From Gammaproteobacteria bacterium (GTDB taxonomy: Bacteria; Pseudomonadota; Gammaproteobacteria; Burkholderiales; Rhodocyclaceae), in contig JARFTZ010000014.1 of the NCBI GenBank assembly GCA_029289235.1, positions 1 to 51,368 on the forward strand: a stretch of DNA of 51,368 nt, in the 5' to 3' direction. A model generated the notes under the pieces. That model did no database searches. It saw nothing but the letters and a program-made list of their open reading frames with translations, and had not been told where the DNA came from. Within the stretch, counting starts at the first letter, position 1. Every line of letters begins with the position of its first letter. Both the position numbers and the translations under genes were made by a program. Positions 37,661 to 47,891 of the stretch are shown in pieces.

Positions 37661-37764
37661 TCAAGGGCCGGGCGTCTTCCAGACAACGTTGAACTGGCCG
37701 TCGGACTTCAGGCCGGTGTTGCCGAGATCTTTGTAGAACTGCACGTTCGAGTCGCCGCAGACTC
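37661..37764 (-). pseudogene. 3' remnant of an unidentified gene at the distal end of the CRISPR array
   Basis: On the minus strand an open frame reads CGDSNVQFYKDLGNTGLKSD and ends ...VVWKTPGP at a TGA (37661-37663). It begins abruptly where the degenerate terminal CRISPR repeat starts (37762). The sequence is protein-like in this frame only. It looks like the last third of a gene cut off by the array or by a rearrangement. I cannot assign the family. Confidence 0.5.
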
Positions 37765-39003
37765 CCCGTTGCCGGGGAGCGATGCGTGATCGATACCACG
37801 GGGCCGATTATCGACAAGCTGTTTCAATCCACGCTCCCTGTTGCCGGGGAGCGATGCGCGCGTCCTTTAGTGCGTTCGAGTTCAACAACAGTTTCAATCC
37901 ACGCTCCCCGTTGCCGGGGAGCGATGCGTCTGAGCGAGTCATTCAACCTTTGCCTAACGAAGTTTCAATCCACGCTCCCCGTTGCCGGGGAGCGATGCAA
38001 GCCGGAGACCGGCGCCCGTGTGTCGATAGTCGGTTTCAATCCACGCTCCCCGTTGCCGGGGAGCGATGCTCGATCGCGCGCAACACTATGCGTACTAGAT
38101 CAGGATGTTTCAATCCACGCTCCCCGTTGCCGGGGAGCGATGCCCTTTTCAGATTGGTCGACTCAGCGAAAAGACAATGTTTCAATCCACGCTCCCCGTT
38201 GCCGGGGAGCGATGCAGCAAGACGGCGTACAAGGAGCAAGTGCTACCCGGTTTCAATCCACGCTCCCCGTTGCCGGGGAGCGATGCCCGAAGACGCCTTG
38301 ATGACCGACTTGATCTTCGAGTTTCAATCCACGCTCCCCGTTGCCGGGGAGCGATGCGTTGCAATGTGCCCGGTGCCGTGACACTCTTCAAGGTTTCAAT
38401 CCACGCTCCCCGTTGCCGGGGAGCGATGCACTGGCGCTTGAACTGGAACGCCTGCTGCTGGACACGTTTCAATCCACGCTCCCCGTTGCCGGGGAGCGAT
38501 GCACCTCCGAGGGGATTAAAATCAGGCCATTCATCGGTTTCAATCCACGCTCCCCGTTGCCGGGGAGCGATGCCCGCGCCGCTGGCCGTAGCACAGCAAA
38601 CCGTCGAAGTTTCAATCCACGCTCCCCGTTGCCGGGGAGCGATGCCGCCTGTCGCGGGCGTGATGAACTTCCGCTGCAAGTTTCAATCCACGCTCCCCGT
38701 TGCCGGGGAGCGATGCCAGAAGTTCCTAGAGTCGATGGACAAATAATAACAGTTTCAATCCACGCTCCCCGTTGCCGGGGAGCGATGCTGCCAGTTGGCG
38801 TCGTCGTTGTCGCCGGGCAGCAGTTTCAATCCACGCTCCCCGTTGCCGGGGAGCGATGCTTCCGACCGTCTGCAATCGACTTGAAGTTGATGCAGTTTCA
38901 ATCCACGCTCCCCGTTGCCGGGGAGCGATGCACAAAATCGACCAGCGGAACAGTCGCGCCGCACCTGTTTCAATCCACGCTCCCCGTTGCCGGGGAGCGA
39001 TGC
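37762..39003 (-). CRISPR. Type I-C CRISPR array: 17 complete repeats plus one degenerate distal repeat, 17 spacers
   Basis: Repeats are 37 bp. On the plus strand each begins GTTTCAATCCACG, continues with a palindromic core CTCCCC...GGGGAG and ends CGATGC; starts are at 37821, 37891, 37962, 38033, 38107, 38179, 38250, 38321, 38393, 38466, 38537, 38609, 38680, 38752, 38823, 38895 and 38967. Spacers are 33-37 bp. The crRNA-sense strand is the minus strand, because type I-C handles end in TGGATTGAAAC, so transcription runs leftward from the leader at 39004-39185. This agrees with decay at the left end: the repeat at 37821 has one base change (T in the core), and the last unit (37762-37785) has lost its GTTTCAATCCACG half. 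All other repeats are identical, so the array has probably been active recently. No spacer source was identified. Confidence 0.98.
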
Positions 39004-39185
39004 TCATCTCTTGTAAGTCGAGATAGCGTAAAGACAATTCGAGCGTGTTGCGCGAACCCCGTCCTTACGGAGCAGTCCGCATCTTACGCGAACCGAAGCC
39101 GGGGAGGTAAATGCAATATAATCAGTTGCTTGCAATTTGCGCGAACCTCCCGGGAAAACTCTGGGTACTCGTGGTTCGCGCATCT
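39004..39185 (-). promoter_or_regulatory. CRISPR leader with repeated TTRCGCGAACC motifs
   Basis: The region between cas2 and the first repeat. On the plus strand it contains three direct copies of TTRCGCGAACC (39048-39058, 39084-39094, 39137-39147) and an inverted GGTTCGCG core (39173-39180). A minus-strand -10-like TATATT lies at 39115-39120, about 110 bp before the first repeat, and could start pre-crRNA transcription. The motif copies may be sites for the integration complex, a host factor or a regulator; that is inference. Confidence 0.7.
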
Positions 39186-40505: not shown

Positions 40506-41144
40506 TCAGTCCTTCGGTTCGAACAGATGCGCCAGTGCTGCTTGGCGCCCCGATTGGTCATGTACCGCGTCCGGTTGGCAGAGGTCGCGCAGCGAGCACG
40601 CGCGGCAGTGTTCGTCAGCCAGCGGCGGTGGTGTAATGCCAGCTGCCAGCAGGTTGCGCACCTCGGCGATGGCACGCATGGCTTTTTCCCGCAAACCGGA
40701 ATCGACTGCAACGATTCGCCGCCTCTTTTAACTGGCGTAGTACAGGGCGCCTTCCGGCACGGGCGTGCCGAACATTTCTTCCAGGCAGAGGGCCTGTGCC
40801 GCCAGTTGCACATCGTCGCAGGCGGCAATGTCGGCCCGCTTGTTCCGGGAGCCGTGTTTGTACTCCACCGGGTAAGGCGTGCCGTCGGGCAGGAACTCGA
40901 CCACATCGGCCTTGCCGACCAGCCCGAGCGTATCGCTGAACAGCGGCAAGGCCCGCTCGATGCGCAGCCCGTCGCGCACTTCAAAGCCTGGATCATCCAC
41001 CCGCTTGTGCAAGGCCTGGCCGCGTTGAGTGAAAAGATTGTCCTCGAATACCTGCTCGATGTGGATCAGGGCGCACTGGCGCGGGCAGTAGCACCAGTGC
41101 TGGAGGGCAGAAAGGGGGATGGGGTCAAGGGGTTCGTCGCTCAT
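40506..41144 (-). pseudogene. cas4: cas4 interrupted by an in-frame TAA stop
   Basis: Cas4 is a RecB-like nuclease with an iron-sulfur cluster that trims prespacers and helps PAM selection. From the ATG at 41144 (MSDEPLDPIPLSALQHWCYC) the RecB-like core is intact: GKADVVEFLPDG with Asp, YPVEYKHG with Glu and Lys, and QLAAQALCLEEMFG. Translation stops after GALYYAS at a TAA (40728-40730). Without a frame change, the same frame continues KRRRIVAVDSGLREKAM and then EHCRACSLRDLCQP, the cluster of three cysteines, to a normal stop at 40506. So one nonsense codon, possibly CAA to TAA, splits a gene of about 212 codons. The truncated product keeps the first Cys but loses the other three. Confidence 0.88.
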
Positions 41145-41215: not shown

Positions 41216-41458
41216 ATGATCAACTCTCCCCTTGAAGACATTGAAGCCGCCGCGCTGCAACTGGCGAGCGGCGACCGCGCCAAACTGGCCGAGCGCCTGC
41301 TGATCAGCCTGGAAGAAGACGACGAAATTCTCACCGCCTGGGTTGAAGAAGCCGAACGCCGGGGCGAGGCCCATGAGCGGGGAGAAATGGAGGCCATCGA
41401 TTTCGATGAGGCGATTGCCCAGGCGCGGGCACGGATCACCAATCGCCGGGTGGCATGA
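41216..41458 (+). CDS. Antitoxin of a RelB/ParD-like addiction module (Unstab_antitox family)
   Basis: An 80-residue acidic protein of the addiction module antitoxin family (MINSPLEDIEAAALQLASGD, RAKLAERLLISLEEDDE, WVEEAERRGEAHERGE). This family, PF09720-like, pairs with ParE/RelE toxins. A strong GGAGG lies 9 bases before the ATG. It overlaps the toxin gene by 4 bases. It is transcribed against the cas operon, between cas7 and cas4, where type I-C loci normally have no gene. Confidence 0.88.
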   Translation: MINSPLEDIEAAALQLASGDRAKLAERLLISLEEDDEILTAWVEEAERRGEAHERGEMEAIDFDEAIAQARARITNRRVA

Positions 41459-41748
41459 AAGCGATATTCCTCAAGGCGGCCCAGGCCGAGTTGAACACCG
41501 CTATCGATTACTACACCGACCACGCCAGCGAACGAGTTGCCGAAGCTTTCTTGCAGGATGTACTGCACACACGCCAGCGGCTGATCGAACTCCCGGAAAT
41601 CGGCAAGCCTGTCTCGAAGCGCCTGCGTGCCCTGGCTCTTAAGCATTTTCCCTATTTCCTGATTTACCGTTTTTCCGGCGACACCATCAGCATCCATGCC
41701 GTCGCCCACCAGCGCCGCCGCCCCGGGTATTGGGGCGGGCGGCGCTGA
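41455..41748 (+). CDS. ParE/RelE-family toxin
   Basis: A 97-residue basic protein of the ParE/RelE superfamily: FLKAAQAELNTAIDYYTDHA near the start, IGKPVSKRLRALAL near residue 50 and PYFLIYRFSGDTISIHAVAHQRR near 66. The ending with His and Arg before GYW is typical of ParE-like toxins, which poison gyrase or cleave mRNA; which one applies cannot be told here. Its stop is only 6 bases from the cas7 stop, so it converges head-on with cas7. Confidence 0.88.
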   Translation: MKAIFLKAAQAELNTAIDYYTDHASERVAEAFLQDVLHTRQRLIELPEIGKPVSKRLRALALKHFPYFLIYRFSGDTISIHAVAHQRRRPGYWGGRR

Positions 41749-42636: not shown

Positions 42637-44381
42637 TTGGAGTCTCCCTGGGTGGATTCGTCGGATTGGGTGGATTTGTTGAAGAAATCTTGGCGCTGGT
42701 GGTAGTAGCCGAGGCTGAAACGCCCTTGGTCGGGCAGGCTCAGGTGTCTGGGGAAATCAGCGATGCCGCCGAGGATTTCGCTCAGCAGGCGCTCGAAATT
42801 CACCGCCCGGCCGCGATTGGTCAGCTTGGCCAGATGGTGATTCTTCAAGCGCAGCAGCGTGGTGAAAACCGCTACCGGCGTACTGGACGCCGCGCCGTAG
42901 TAGCGTTCTCGGATGGTGGCGTTGAGGCCAGGGTTGGCTTCTTCCTGGATCTTTTCCAAGACCGCGAAAAGACGCCCCAGGCGATAAGCCGCATTGGAAT
43001 TGGCTAGGTCAAGCATGTCGGAAAACTCCTGGATAAAAGAGGAATCGGGGGAGCGGCGGGAACGGTTGAGGCAGGCCTTGATCGCCACCGCGCGCAGGTA
43101 AGTGACGTTTTGCTCAGCGCGGCAGCGTTGTACCGCCGCGTTGAGCCAGGTGGCCGGAAAGGGGCTGCCAGAGAGAATCGCCCGCATGATGTCGCCGCCG
43201 AGATTGGGTGGGATGTTGTCAGCCTTGCCCTGCTGGGCGCAGGCCGCCAGCAGCCGGAACAGGCTGGGGTATTCTGGGTCCTTGCCGCTGCGCACCATCT
43301 TGAGGTCGGCGAACCACTGCCGGATGCGCTGGGCGACTTCATGCAAAGGCGCGGCGTACCAGAAGCGAACCGAAATCCGTGCCGCATTCGGTGCCAGACC
43401 GAGGACGTAAAAACGGTTTTCGCCACGCCCACCGTCGAACTGACCGGATTGAACGGCGCTCAGGACACCGCGCACCAGTTCGATACGGGCATCCGGATCG
43501 TCCTGCTGTTCGCCGAAAACCGCAGCAAAGACCGACTCGGCCTCGGCGTCTTCCTTCTGCGCCCAGAACACCGTCGACGCATCGCCTACCTGAAAACGCT
43601 GCCGCGAATTGCGGTCGAGCAGATGATTCAGGGCAGTGGTGTAGGCGAAGGCGGCAAAGGGGCTGACTGGAGCGTTATCGCCTTGCTCCTTGTTGAAAGA
43701 GGCGAAGGCGTCGAGGTTGAAGGAAACCAAGGTTGCACCGGAACTCTGCGCCCCCCAGACACCCTTGATGACCGTGTGCAGGCGCTCCGTCGCGGCTGGC
43801 TCGCCGGTCACCAGGCAGATGGCCGTCGCGGCGCTCGCATCTTCATCGCCACGGCAGGCGGACACGACGGCGGGCCGCTGGCAGATCAGGTCGCCGTCGT
43901 TGTGCAGACGAAAAGTCATGACCGGATTGCCTTCGAGGATTTCCGGCCAGCAGGCGTCGTTACTCAACTGTGTCGGGCCACCGCTGGTGTAGAAAAGCTC
44001 CAGCGCCTGAATGCCCGCATCCTGCCGCGCCGATTCCGGCAACTCGGCTATGCGCTGACGGAAGGCCGCATGCTGCTCGGCTACCCGCTCCGGCTTGCCA
44101 CGCGTATCGACACCCAGCACGTACTCGGCGGTATCCCACAGCAGATTGGCCGCTACGCCGGACGAACGCTTGACGCCCTTGGGCACCAGATAACGCCGCG
44201 CCACCTTCTTCTTGCCCTCGATCTGCCGGGTGTCGACGATGCCCAAGGGCCTGCCTTCAACGGTCAACTCGATAATGAAGGGAATTTCCTTGTCTTCCAG
44301 GCCATAGGCCGGCAAGCGCCGAGTTGAATCGGGATCAAGGGCCTTGCGCTGGTAGTAGTCGTAAAGGGCCTGAAGGATCAT
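42633..44381 (-). CDS. cas8c: Cas8c (Csd1), Cascade large subunit
   Basis: A 582-residue Csd1 protein, the signature gene of type I-C, which recognises the PAM. An internal start within this gene usually also yields the small subunit Cas11c in type I-C. The N-terminus [19 protein letters not shown] and the segments [19 protein letters not shown] in part near 75 and [20 protein letters not shown] near 155 match the family. Both ends overlap neighbouring genes by 4 bases (cas5c upstream, cas7 downstream), so the effector genes are tightly coupled. Confidence 0.96.
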
Positions 44382-45031
44382 CCCATCACCTGCGCTTTCG
44401 TCAGGTCGATCACCCCGTGCTGCATGTCGGCGCGGAAAAATTGCGGTTTTGGGTCGTTGACCGCAGTAAAGTCCATGTCGAACAGCATCCAGCCGAGATC
44501 GCGGGTTTCGTCGATGGCCGGCATCTCGTCACCGGGCTGATCGACCAGCCGGAAACGGGCTGCGAATTCCCGGCAGCCGAGGTAGGGCTGGTTGACGCAT
44601 TGCCCCTTTTCCGCCCGCCGCTGGAACAGCTCGCGGTACTTGGCCGGGTTGCTGCGGGCGTCGTCGCCCACCGGCACCAGCTCGGCATGGATGCGATAGG
44701 CCACATCGCGCAGGAACAGGCCGGCGCGCTGTTGGCGGTCTTCCTCCACGTACAGGGCGAGGTTGCCCTTGCCGGCACCCATCGCCGTTTGCGCATTGCG
44801 CACCGACGCCTTGGACGCCACCTCGTTGCGCCGCACGCTGATCCAGCGGATCGGCTTGAGCACTTCAATGCACTTCACGTCCCAGCGGATCGCCGGCTTC
44901 CACAAAATGGCCTCGAACACCGAGCGCGCAGCGGAAGGCGTCATCACGTCGTAGGACACCCGCTCAACCTTCATTTCCGGGCGCGTAAAGCAGGCGAAAT
45001 CGCCTGAGACTTCAAGGCAAAACCTTTCCAA
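44378..45031 (-). CDS. cas5: Cas5c (Csd5), crRNA-processing Cascade subunit
   Basis: A 217-residue Cas5c. In type I-C it replaces Cas6 as the pre-crRNA endonuclease and keeps the 11-nt handle. Features: LEVSGDFACFTRPEMKVERV with the ferredoxin-like first strand, YDVMTPSAARSVFEAILWKP near 27, and IRWISVRRNEV near 62. No cas6 is present in the locus, as expected. It begins 16 bases after the stop of the 52-residue membrane ORF, so the two are probably on one transcript whose promoter lies near 45241-45270. Confidence 0.95.
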   Translation of the reverse strand: MERFCLEVSGDFACFTRPEMKVERVSYDVMTPSAARSVFEAILWKPAIRWDVKCIEVLKPIRWISVRRNEVASKASVRNAQTAMGAGKGNLALYVEEDRQQRAGLFLRDVAYRIHAELVPVGDDARSNPAKYRELFQRRAEKGQCVNQPYLGCREFAARFRLVDQPGDEMPAIDETRDLGWMLFDMDFTAVNDPKPQFFRADMQHGVIDLTKAQVMG

Positions 45032-45047: not shown

Positions 45048-45206
45048 CTAAAAAAATCTCGACAGCAACTCCATCATCAACGTCGAGCGAAAAAATAAGC
45101 CACCGACAATGACTGTTAGAACCAGCAGCCACGCCGCGTAATAGCGGTGAGATGGCTGATCTTTCATCAACCGCAACTCCTGCAGCAATCCAATTAGGTT
45201 GTTCAT
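45048..45206 (-). CDS. Small single-pass membrane protein between cas3 and cas5c
   Basis: A 52-residue ORF (MNNLIGLLQELRLMKDQPSH, then RYYAAWLLVLTVIVGGLFFR, ending LLSRFF). It has an amphipathic N-terminal helix and one clear hydrophobic segment at about 23-40. The ATG at 45206 is preferred to the one at 45242, which overlaps the predicted -10. AGGA lies 9 bases upstream, inside a strong hairpin. The size, hydrophobicity and position under a promoter targeted by a crRNA-like RNA resemble either a small cas-associated membrane protein or a toxin controlled by that RNA. I do not recognise a family. It could also be a non-functional leader ORF. Confidence 0.5.
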   Translation of the reverse strand: MNNLIGLLQELRLMKDQPSHRYYAAWLLVLTVIVGGLFFRSTLMMELLSRFF

Positions 45207-45239
45207 TTGCACCGTTCCTGGCCAGGTAACGGTGCAAAT
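45205..45239 (-). promoter_or_regulatory. Strong dyad overlapping the start codon of the 52-residue ORF
   Basis: Arms ATTTGCACCGTT (45205-45216) and AACGGTGCAAAT (45228-45239) are perfectly complementary, and the centre CCTGGCCAGG is itself a palindrome. In the leftward mRNA it would fold with the AGGA ribosome site inside the structure and the ATG at its base. It could be an mRNA hairpin limiting translation or an operator. Confidence 0.75.
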
Positions 45240-45240
45240 C

Positions 45241-45260
45241 ATAATATATTTCTTAGAGGG
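45241..45260 (-). promoter_or_regulatory. Leftward -10 region of the cas5c operon with PAM-flanked seed target
   Basis: On the minus strand TATTAT (45246-45241), within TATATTATGAT, is a likely -10; the -35 is weak. On the plus strand TTC (45250-45252), the canonical type I-C PAM, is directly followed by TTAGAGGG (45253-45260). This matches the pseudo-spacer start TTAGAAGG at positions 1-5, 7 and 8; position 6 is normally not read in type I targeting. Binding here would cover the promoter. Confidence 0.6.
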
Positions 45261-45291
45261 TTAGTTAGAGTACTTTTATTTCTGGCTAATC

Positions 45292-45300
45292 TGATACTAT
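45292..45300 (+). promoter_or_regulatory. Extended -10 promoter of the crRNA-like RNA
   Basis: TGATACTAT fits the extended -10 pattern TG-N-TANNNT. Transcription would start near 45306, flush with the repeat-like hairpin that begins at 45308. No good -35 is seen. Confidence 0.55.
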
Positions 45301-45305
45301 CTTTC

Positions 45306-45385
45306 ATCGTCGTAATAGCGACGTGGATTGAAACTTAGAAGGGTTTGTTAGTAACAATGTGGGCCGGGCTTGTCCCGGCCCTTTT
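45306..45385 (+). ncRNA. Candidate crRNA-like regulatory RNA (CreR/CreA-like) antisense to the cas operon
   Basis: A single repeat-like unit, absent from the array, lies here. Stem CGTCG / CGACG (45308-45312, 45319-45323) with a 6-nt loop is followed by TGGATTGAAAC (45324-45334). The genuine repeat in crRNA sense has an 8-bp stem CGCTCCCC / GGGGAGCG, also with a 6-nt loop, and exactly the same 11-nt handle. The stem sequence has diverged but its geometry is kept. A pseudo-spacer of 26 nt (45335-45360) runs into a perfect terminator. An extended -10 lies 5-6 bases upstream of the expected start. Known CreR and CreA RNAs of other subtypes have this form and guide Cascade to a promoter by a short seed. 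The RNA and its role are inferred; no transcript is seen from sequence alone. Confidence 0.72.
45361..45385 (+). terminator. Rho-independent terminator of the crRNA-like RNA
   Basis: A perfect 8-bp stem GGGCCGGG / CCCGGCCC with a 5-nt loop CTTGT, followed by TTTT. The T-run is on the rightward side only, so it does not serve cas3, which reads leftward into it; this supports a rightward transcript. Confidence 0.88.
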
Positions 45386-45410
45386 ACTGTCATTGTCTGA
45401 ATAGGTAGTC

Positions 45411-47891
45411 TCATTGGACGAGACTCCCGGGATCACCCGGCACACCATCAACATTGATCCCCAGCACCTTGTCGTAAAGCACGTCGTTATCTGCCGACTG
45501 CACGTACAAGCCGGGGAAGTCGCCGCCCAAGGGTTCGATGTCGCCTTGCTTGAGCAGGCGCTGCAGGTCGTTGTTGTAGATGGTCACGCCGTAGCGTTGC
45601 AGCTTGCGCAGGAGCCAGCGGTCCGGGCCGTTCTTCTTGAGGGTGTTCAGCCACATGCCGATGCGGTCGTCTTCCGGGTCACGCCGGTAGCGGACGAAGA
45701 CCGTGGCGCCGTCCTGTTCGTCGATCAGCCGGAAGCGCTCGGCGGCAGTGCGGAACATGACTTGAAATTCAGGGCCGCGACTACGCAACAAATCCCGAAT
45801 GTTTTTCGCGTCCAAGGACGAATCCCGATATAGCGCACTGAAATACTCGCCAAAACGCTCTACTCCCATTGGATTTGAGCCTGCTTGCAGCGCCTTCCAT
45901 AAATGCTGCGTCTTCTGCTTAGCCATACGCAGCAGACCAGGCGGTGGTTCTTGCGGCGGCACAAAGACATAGACCTCACCTCTTTCCAGCCGCCCTTCGC
46001 GGTTACAGCGCCCAGCGGCCTGGGCGATGGAATCGAGTCCGGCCAGTGCCCGGTAAACCACGGGAAAATCGATGTCGACGCCAGCTTCCACCAACTGCGT
46101 GCTGACCACCCGGATCGGTTGGGTGACCTCTCCCGTGCTCAAGGCCTGCCGCCGTTCGGCCAGCGCGGCCTTGATGGCCTGGATGGTGTCGCTGCGATGC
46201 TCGGCGCACATCAGGCCGGACAGGTGCCAGAGCCCTTCGGAACTTTCCGTCTTGAGTTGCCGGTAGAGATCGCGGGCATCGGCGCGGCGGCCGACGATGG
46301 CGAGTACGGCCTCATGGCGGGCGATTTCCGGCGCAAGATCGTCCCAGGTTCGCGTCGCGTTCAGATCGGCAGGGAGATGCACCCGCACTCGCTCCAGATC
46401 GGCGTAAAGGCCGGGCAAGTCGTCGACGATCTCGCGCACTTCACCCGCCTTGAAGCCGCGCAAGGCCTTGGCTTGATCGAAGCCGGTCCGGCTTTCCAGC
46501 GTCGGCTGGGTAGCGGTGCACAACACCAGCGTAACGCCGTAATCCTTGACCAGCAGGCGCAGCACATCGACCACCGGCTGCAGGTAAGCAACCGGCAGCA
46601 ATTGCGCTTCGTCGAGAACGATGACGCTACCGATCAGGTTGTGCAGTTTGCGGCAGCGTGAGGTGCGGTTGGCGAACAAGCTTTCCAGCAACTGCACGTT
46701 GGTGGTGACGACCAGCGGCGCGTCCCAGTTCTCGCACGCGAGCCGCGAGCGGGCGGTTTCCCGGGTCTCGTCGACTTCGACGTTGCTGTGGTGCTCGATG
46801 ACGTTCTCGTCGCCGAAAATTCCCCGGAAAATACCGGCCGTCTGCTCGATGATGCTGGTGTAGGGAATGGCATAGATGATCCGGCGTTTGAGCTTCACCG
46901 TTCGCTGATCGTTTTTTTCTTGAAGTACCGCGTGGCGTAGCGCGAAAGCCAGACTGGACAAGGTCTTGCCGCCACCGGTCGGCACCGTCAGGCTGAACAC
47001 ACCAGGCGGCAGTTCCGCCTTGGCGATACAGACGCGCAGAACTTCGGCGCGCTTGCGGTTGACCTTGCTATCGGCCTCGCCGCGCGCGGCAACGTCGCGG
47101 GCCATTCTGGCGAGACGTTCGGAAAGCGACTGCTCCAGTACATCGAGACCGGGAAAGCCCTGCCGTACTTCGCTTTTTCCCGGCGACATGAAGGCTTCGG
47201 TATCGAGGAAATCGGCATCCACCACGCAGGAAAAGAGCATGCGCACCCAAAGCGCAAAGCGTCCGGGAATGGGATCATCCTTGTCGTCGTCGCGGTAGCG
47301 GAACAGATCCGCCATATCGGGCAAGGAACCGGCCGGTTTCAGGAGATGTTCGGGAATGGTCGCGGCGCAGGCCGTCGCCAGCTCCCTTTGGGCGTCTTCG
47401 GAGGCAAAGCGGTTATGCAGGCTCTTGTTCTCGCCCGCCCAATCCGACAGCCCGGCATGATGGCCGGCGATCAGGTAGGAGAGTACGCGGGCGACGACCG
47501 GCCCCGTGCGTTTATCCACTTCTTCGAGATAGCGCTGCGCCCATAGGGCGCCGGCCGCCGAATGTGTCTTGTCCGCTCCGGCAACGCGCCCCTCGATATG
47601 CGCATCCGGGTCGCCGCATTGGCGGATATAGCGCTGGAAGCCTTCGCGGAATTTGCCAAGGTCGTGCCACAAACCGGCAAGTGCCGCCCAGGGAGCCGCG
47701 CCGAATGCTTCCGCAAACATCGCGGCGAGTCGGGAAACCTCGGCCAGATGATCGTCCAGATCGTGGCAGACCAAACGGCCCCCATCATTTCTGAGATGCG
47801 CAACCCGTTCTTCTTCCCTGTCGCTGTCCACATTCATCCGGGATGTCAGTGCGGCAGGATCGACCGACAAGACTTCCTTTTCCGTGCTCAC
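45411..47891 (-). CDS. cas3: Cas3 helicase-nuclease (type I-C)
   Basis: An 826-residue Cas3. An N-terminal HD nuclease covers about 30-260 (LAGLWHDLGKFREGF near 75; YLIAGHHAGLSDW near 140). SF2 helicase motifs follow: PTGGGKTLSSLAFALRHA near 308, VLDEAQLLPVAYLQP near 427 (a DEAQ box, common in I-C Cas3), LCTATQPTLE near 460 and QAAGRCNREGR near 635. It unwinds and degrades DNA marked by Cascade. The start is a GTG at 47891 with GGAGA about 7 bases upstream. It is separated from cas5c by an atypical 380-bp gap that contains the small ORF and the crRNA-like gene, so cas3 and the Cascade genes may be controlled separately. Confidence 0.96.
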   Translation of the reverse strand: MSTEKEVLSVDPAALTSRMNVDSDREEERVAHLRNDGGRLVCHDLDDHLAEVSRLAAMFAEAFGAAPWAALAGLWHDLGKFREGFQRYIRQCGDPDAHIEGRVAGADKTHSAAGALWAQRYLEEVDKRTGPVVARVLSYLIAGHHAGLSDWAGENKSLHNRFASEDAQRELATACAATIPEHLLKPAGSLPDMADLFRYRDDDKDDPIPGRFALWVRMLFSCVVDADFLDTEAFMSPGKSEVRQGFPGLDVLEQSLSERLARMARDVAARGEADSKVNRKRAEVLRVCIAKAELPPGVFSLTVPTGGGKTLSSLAFALRHAVLQEKNDQRTVKLKRRIIYAIPYTSIIEQTAGIFRGIFGDENVIEHHSNVEVDETRETARSRLACENWDAPLVVTTNVQLLESLFANRTSRCRKLHNLIGSVIVLDEAQLLPVAYLQPVVDVLRLLVKDYGVTLVLCTATQPTLESRTGFDQAKALRGFKAGEVREIVDDLPGLYADLERVRVHLPADLNATRTWDDLAPEIARHEAVLAIVGRRADARDLYRQLKTESSEGLWHLSGLMCAEHRSDTIQAIKAALAERRQALSTGEVTQPIRVVSTQLVEAGVDIDFPVVYRALAGLDSIAQAAGRCNREGRLERGEVYVFVPPQEPPPGLLRMAKQKTQHLWKALQAGSNPMGVERFGEYFSALYRDSSLDAKNIRDLLRSRGPEFQVMFRTAAERFRLIDEQDGATVFVRYRRDPEDDRIGMWLNTLKKNGPDRWLLRKLQRYGVTIYNNDLQRLLKQGDIEPLGGDFPGLYVQSADNDVLYDKVLGINVDGVPGDPGSLVQ

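Follow-up and report, generated by a model that had tools for sequence, protein, structure and literature searches.

A crRNA-like RNA gene paired with a putative membrane-peptide toxin gene at the cas3-cas5 junction of type I-C CRISPR-Cas loci

The 379-nt gap between cas3 and cas5 of a type I-C CRISPR-Cas locus contains, on the strand opposite to these two genes, a small crRNA-like RNA gene. We propose that its product is likely a CreA-like antitoxin that would guide the I-C Cascade to a neighbouring promoter and silence a membrane-peptide toxin, in the manner of the CreTA and CrePA systems; transcription, processing, binding, repression and toxicity are all inferred in this proposal. The window (the whole 51,368-nt stretch of DNA that was analysed) carries the locus on its minus strand with the gene order cas3-cas5c-cas8c-cas7c-cas4-cas1-cas2 and a CRISPR array, which satisfies the criterion for membership of type I-C (Table 1). 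Two other features of the locus deserve mention. The cas4 gene has an in-frame stop after about 155 codons, at about position 40728, and Cas4-like sequence continues in the same frame; this may reflect real decay or a sequencing error. Between cas7 and cas4, on the opposite strand (41216-41748, plus strand), lie a ParE-type toxin gene (PF05016) and an antitoxin gene (PF09720), a pair that we read as a second, conventional addiction module inside the cas operon.

The RNA gene (45306-45388, plus strand) consists of a diverged repeat hairpin, an 11-nt handle identical to that of the array, a spacer-like stretch and a terminator. The handle, TGGATTGAAAC, is the same 11 nt found in 17 array copies and has a single plus-strand copy within the window, while the element stem (CGTCG at 45308-45312 and CGACG at 45319-45323, enclosing a 6-nt loop) differs from the array stem, CGCTCCCC..GGGGAGCG. 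The terminator-like hairpin (45361-45381) starts 26 nt past the handle; a terminator scan of 601 nt found two such sites versus a mean of 0.5 in shuffles, and the fold of a 90-nt stretch has a z of -3.6, with 1 of 200 shuffles equally good. An initial annotation had claimed a hairpin with a 6-nt loop joined to the exact array handle on the strand opposite to the cas genes, a stem unlike that of the array and so a diverged repeat, and a terminator 26 nt after the handle. All of this held. The extended -10 that it claimed, TGATACTAT, is also present, but a sigma-70 scan of the 601 nt found no -35/-10 pair on either strand, and therefore both of our promoter claims, for the RNA gene and for the divergent promoter described below, rest on -10-like sequences. 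A search of Rfam gave no match above the gathering score, the CRISPR-DR9 family remaining sub-threshold at 16.8 bits versus a gathering score of 45. A degenerate repeat outside the array but within the cas locus is one criterion of CreTA and CrePA, and it is met here between cas3 and cas5.

Table 1. Features of the module and its locus in the window
Feature	Position	Strand	Basis or remark
CRISPR array, 18 repeat units	37762..39010	-	crRNA sense on minus strand
cas5c	44378..45031	-	PADLOC Cas5c, E 1.5e-69	
cas3	45411..47891	-	PADLOC Cas3c, E 1.9e-207
52-aa peptide gene, family 1, putative toxin	45048..45206	-	short helix at the N-terminus, then a turn and a single long hydrophobic helix
Inverted repeat TTGCACCGTT...AACGGTGCAA, directly ahead of peptide ATG	45207..45237	-	read from sequence
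-10-like sequence TATATT / TATTAT of divergent promoter, adjoins PAM	45241..45248	-	-10 test
TTC PAM	45250..45252	+	sequence, target scan
Guide target	45253..45268	+	15/15 scored positions match if target lacks base 6; position 12 mismatched
Extended -10 of crRNA-like RNA gene, TGATACTAT	45292..45300	+	read from sequence; consensus scan gave no -35 partner
Diverged repeat hairpin CGTCG-TAATAG-CGACG, expected Cas5c recognition stem	45308..45323	+	sequence, fold; stem unlike array stem
11-nt handle TGGATTGAAAC, same as array handle	45324..45334	+	sequence comparison
Spacer-like guide, 26 nt long, adjoining terminator stem	45335..45360	+	seed matches target at 45253
Intrinsic terminator, in place of second repeat	45361..45388	+	terminator scan; fold

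The start of the spacer recurs once in the window, 82 nt upstream and immediately after TTC, the PAM of a type I-C system (PMC8406640). This PAM and target (45250-45268) lie on a promoter-like region that reads the opposite way, into a gene for a 52-aa peptide with one transmembrane (TM) segment. The initial annotation had missed both the target and the peptide gene, and therefore no choice between CreR and CreA was possible there. Read as a target without base 6, the site matches the guide at positions 1-5, 7-11 and 13-17 and differs at position 12. This gapped reading was devised after viewing the sequence; the same is true of the pattern TTCTTAGANGG, which has one occurrence in the window versus 0.01 expected. 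On the gapped score no other of the 1,791 TTC sites of the window exceeds 9/15, and none of 9,034 in other loci exceeds 11. The missing base may be real, or it may be an assembly error. Without the gap the match is weak, at 8 of 10 seed positions, a score reached in 15 of 2,140 cross-locus comparisons. In a wider second-target search covering 13 loci, the site before cas5 was the single best in 11; the ungapped score of the window ties with two sites outside the cas locus, and L036 has no such site. The PAM-free score of the window, 9/12, is not above background; the case for the window rests on the PAM, the gapped match and the relatives. The inverted repeat ahead of the peptide gene could be a leader hairpin hiding the ribosome site, or else an operator bound by a regulator; both possibilities are inferred from sequence alone.

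Whole genomes of the order and class, together with named contigs, were the source of the relatives, which were fetched with Cas5c as the anchor; one locus was added via a peptide search. The 52-aa peptide searched alone in 40 genomes, the window's own included, had found just the window, and Cas5c was therefore needed as the anchor. Removal of eight duplicates from 137 loci with upstream sequence left 129. These are not a fair sample of type I-C, as the contig scan kept the best 80 of at least 582 relatives and the rest came from genome draws, and the proportion carrying the element should therefore not be taken as a frequency. Within 700 nt of cas5, 29 handle matches were found, spread over 28 of the 129 loci; two of them (one in L151 and an antisense one in L146), without hairpin and PAM, were dropped by hand as chance, leaving 27 elements in 27 loci. 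Each has a spacer of its own, the seeds of L146 and L148 being alike and the others different. Among the eight element-bearing loci with an array in view, the element handle equals that of its own array in four (the window, L102, L106 of Methyloversatilis thermotolerans, and L131) and is one to two bases off in L036, L041, L061 and L084. L146 also has a degenerate handle, GTAGAAAC. The initial annotation had suggested checking whether stems change while the handle stays fixed: a perfect stem of at least 5 bp stands beside the handle in 19 of 27 elements, versus 18% of random positions, and the stem sequences differ, while 7 of 27 have no stem of even 4 bp. The constancy of the handle is partly by construction, since the elements were found by it.

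A copy of the element's own seed lies nearby in 25 of the 27 cases, preceded by TTC in 23, by TTT in L111 and by GTT in L114; in L021 and L036 the element is present and a PAM-free scan found no convincing target nearby. That scan took in all 29 handle matches in the 28 loci; with both dropped matches counted, a target is seen in 25 of 29, and the best home site still carries TTC in 23 of 29. When TTC was required, in the first set, 16 of 20 elements reached at least 9/10 at home, versus 2 of 2,140 cross-locus comparisons. Guide and target thus change together from locus to locus. A profile of 18 guide-target pairs (L036, later judged to be without a target, is among them) matches at positions 1-4 in 18/18, at position 6 in 6/18, at position 12 in 2/18 and at each of positions 13 and 14 in 14/18; site choice had not drawn on positions 6 and 12-14. 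The geometry of type I Cascade leaves one base free every sixth position, and the mismatches at positions 6 and 12 therefore favour pairing inside Cascade over antisense RNA or chance. The targets also tend to overlap a putative promoter: 17 of 19 targets have a -10-like hexamer of at least 4/6 no more than 15 nt downstream of the PAM, versus 18% of positions, and 11 of 19 have one of at least 5/6, versus 3%. This test covered 19 of the 25 targets, leaving out L018, L102, L111, L139, L142 and L143, where the TTC or TTT is on the cas5-sense strand. A guide with a partial, PAM-flanked match to the promoter of a neighbouring gene is a further criterion of CreTA and CrePA and is met, the promoter itself being inferred from the -10-like sequence. 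That the RNA guides Cascade to this target is very likely, although inferred from sequence alone. Comparison with relatives likewise supports the CreA/CreR-type RNA claimed by the initial annotation; its transcription is inferred, without transcript data.

Two alternative readings of the element are all but excluded by these observations. It could be left over from a decayed array or be a stray repeat, the similarity nearby being due to chance; the single repeat with its diverged stem and the lack of a target in L021 and L036 would suit this. Against it stand the cross-locus seed control, the mismatches at positions 6 and 12, the promoter overlap and the recurrence at one site over many Cas5c clades, and the initial annotation's view that this is not a stray repeat held, disfavoured as that reading is by the co-changing targets. 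The element could also be an RNA anti-CRISPR of the Racr kind, that is, a solitary repeat tying up Cas proteins: Racrs are solitary repeat mimics of phages (PMC10651486), and ours is a solitary repeat unit with a handle. However, a seed copy of its own lies nearby in 25 of 27 loci, the element sits in cas loci between cas3 and cas5, and tblastn of one family-1 peptide (the peptide only, not the RNA) found no match in plasmid or phage records. We dropped this reading because the element sits in a cas locus with its own co-changing target, and the criterion of a phage-borne repeat without a dedicated target is not met.

Peptides of one of three families accompany the element in 19 of the 27 loci that bear it. 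Family 1, present in the window and 14 relatives, is encoded beyond the -10 of the target; its members have 38-58 aa (70 aa in L142) and share the consensus M-D-W-x-G-x-L-R-E-L-R-L-L-x-x-Q-L-P-x-x-R-F, followed by a hydrophobic helix. AlphaFold models the window peptide as helices at 2-16 and 20-51, with a mean pLDDT of 83 and a pTM of 0.44. The ratio pN/pS is 0.12 for L005/L008, where silent sites are near saturation, and 0.07 for L072/L134; it spans 0.07-0.31 over five family-1 pairs and is near 0.6 in families 2 and 3. These proportions are uncorrected and untested, and several pairs have reached saturation at silent sites. The low values in two close family-1 pairs indicate that the peptide matters as a protein, which speaks against a purely RNA-based toxin; an effect of the RNA is not excluded. 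Across the 129 loci, 15 have both the family-1 peptide and the element, 12 the element only, one the peptide only and 101 neither. The peptide profile was built from ten seeds, all from loci already known to hold the RNA, and run over 136 loci, so that its unbiased results are the absence from loci without the RNA and the matches in L139, L142, L134 and L114. In the sole peptide-only locus, L052, a sister of L048, RNA and target were not found and the start reads GTG. We consider it likely that the 52-aa peptide is toxic. This is an inference: there are no expression or toxicity data, and conservation and co-occurrence with the RNA are circumstantial only.

Families 2 (L019/L020) and 3 (L146/L148) are also one-TM peptides, and neither profile nor phmmer comparison found similarity to family 1 or between the two. 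Both are arranged in tandem, in the order target-peptide-repeat-spacer-hairpin-cas5, with the peptide overlapping the repeat or the repeat closely following; the family-3 module of L146 and L148 fits within 350 nt before cas5. No peptide of the three families was found in eight of the 27 loci (L017, L018, L021, L036, L084, L102, L111 and L143). The guide targets of L018 and L143 are on the cas5-sense strand, close to other small ORFs that may represent further cargo types; L018 has a hydrophobic one that resembles a lipoprotein. None of 11 peptides scored better than E 0.09 in Pfam or NCBIfam, PADLOC has no family for the window peptide, and the peptide profile, run at E <= 1e-4 in 398 genomes drawn from the phylum, found only the window. 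Weak peptide matches in L115-L118 and L125-L128, short or inside larger frames, were set aside. The exception kept is an orphan in genome G190 (L124 / L129), a family-1-like peptide gene and weak homologue (E 1.9e-6) that adjoins a 233-aa gene without a Pfam match; in the surrounding 17 kb, tblastn with five Cas proteins of the window detected no relatives.

At a single site, the cas3-cas5 junction, the module has the look of an insert that is gained and lost. The median gap between these genes is 331 nt with the element (25 loci, minimum 149) versus 16 nt without it (97 loci); in the latter it is 75 nt or less in 83 and 149 nt or more in 10. The end of cas3 was taken as that of the nearest upstream sense frame of at least 150 aa, and the statistic omits four loci with short upstream sequence and three without a measurable gap, one without and two with the element. 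Close relatives of the window, L032 for example, show similar flanks and a 43-nt gap. On the Cas5c tree of 128 proteins the element is scattered, requiring 22 changes for 27 carriers, a figure without a shuffle control.

The main rival to the toxin-antitoxin reading is a CreR-type autoregulator, in which the RNA would guide Cascade to an internal promoter of the cas5-cas8-cas7 operon and Cascade would thereby keep its own level down; the peptide would be a harmless or accessory first gene of that operon. In its favour, the target promoter of the window reads toward cas5 with the peptide gene in between, peptide and cas5 being close and codirectional; no terminator was found between them in the window, and repression could therefore also lower cas5. 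Moreover, L017, L084, L102 and L111 have RNA and target without a known peptide, and three of these (L017, L084 and L102) place the target 44-141 nt ahead of cas5, the position expected for CreR. Against it, and most tellingly, L139 and L142 carry a mirror image of the entire module: the RNA gene is oriented toward cas5, and the gene for the family-1 peptide lies on the opposite strand, pointing away from cas5, with the target on the peptide side. The PAM of L142 is beside the peptide ATG, with 11 nt from protospacer start to ATG according to printed coordinates, and in L139 the ATG is about 10 nt beyond the PAM as read from the sequence. A guide that goes with the peptide rather than with cas5 fits an addiction module. 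The short gaps in element-less loci imply that a promoter at this position is generally unnecessary for cas5, whose transcription normally comes from upstream; the family-1 peptide occurs in only 1 of 102 element-less loci; and in L019/L020 and L146/L148 the RNA gene and a hairpin (identified by eye, without a T run) separate peptide and cas5. We therefore regard CreR as an unlikely explanation of the module in general, one that some relatives may nonetheless use. In L102 and L111 the RNA element is on the cas5 strand, the target is just before it and no TM peptide was found; CreR-type autoregulation in type I-C is a possibility for these two.

Among described systems, the CreTA of Acinetobacter type I-F (PMC10097628) likewise occupies the gap between cas3 and the first effector gene, about 400 bp long versus a continuous operon in relatives, with creA divergent from a small ORF and a guide that partly matches a PAM-flanked site before it. 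It differs in being a type I-F system with Csy4, two repeats, a 33-bp mini-ORF and a toxic RNA, whereas the present module belongs to type I-C without Cas6 and has one repeat with a terminator and a one-TM peptide. The haloarchaeal type I-B CreTA (PMC8501985) shares the crRNA-like antitoxin RNA and, in the creA of H. hispanica, the single repeat, the other being replaced by a terminator; its 11-bp seed beside the PAM (PMC10097628) is a further likeness. Unlike our module it is archaeal and Cas6-processed, and its RNA toxin sequesters a rare tRNA. In CrePA (reviewed in PMC12737573) a CreA-type RNA and Cascade repress a protein toxin gene, but CreP acts on cell division and usually contains a KilA-N domain. 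This domain, typical of CrePA and not strictly defining (PMC12737573), is absent here: the peptides are single-TM and have no Pfam or NCBIfam match above chance. CreR (PMC12737573; PMC13131331) shares a crRNA-like RNA guiding the Cas effector to a promoter inside the cas locus, but its targets are cas promoters, and as a rule no toxin gene is linked to it (PMC12737573). It has been described for I-B, I-E and V-A, type I-C not being among the subtypes named (PMC12737573; PMC13131331); L017, L102 and L111 fit it better. The divergent layout of guide and small ORF (I-F CreTA), the one-repeat creA with a terminator and protein toxins under CreA (CrePA) are thus already known; within the literature searched, the subtype I-C, the membrane peptides and the breadth are new. 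We found no report of such I-C modules in the open-access literature searched, PMC13131331 included, but the original CreTA, CreR and CrePA reports were outside the scope, so that an earlier mention in supplements is possible.

For the toxin-antitoxin module we suggest the following mechanism. A short RNA would be transcribed by RNA polymerase, starting near 45306 and ending at the terminator. Cas6 is missing from type I-C; Cas5c would cut at the base of the hairpin, leaving the 11-nt handle, and the RNA would enter the I-C Cascade like a crRNA. Cascade would then find TTC and the short, interrupted seed match on the promoter of the peptide gene and block it, the match being presumably too short to provoke cleavage by Cas3. 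Loss or mutation of Cascade, or its inhibition by an anti-CRISPR protein, would open the promoter, the peptide would be made and the membrane would probably be harmed; the cell would thereby depend on keeping its CRISPR system, as with an addiction module.

A bolder reading, towards which we lean with reservations, is that type I-C loci hold widespread, come-and-go CRISPR-repressed toxin-antitoxin modules at the cas3-cas5 junction. Their toxins would be small membrane peptides from three or more families without mutual similarity, and the modules would damage the membrane on sensing that I-C Cascade is lost or inhibited. Family 1 would be divergent, in either orientation to cas5, and families 2 and 3 tandem.

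If the proposal is true, Cascade-guided repression of companion genes extends to type I-C, a common subtype without Cas6. The analysis also yields a working, purely sequence-based search recipe: an isolated handle, its own seed copy beside TTC and a -10 next to the PAM. The interrupted seed, with positions 6 and 12 free over many guide-target pairs, amounts to a natural experiment on the shortest match for repression by I-C Cascade without cutting. Small membrane-active toxins are mostly known as members of type I pairs, alongside an antisense RNA; should the peptides prove toxic, such toxins come under CRISPR control, and bacteria with type I-C systems would gain a built-in alarm against anti-CRISPR proteins.
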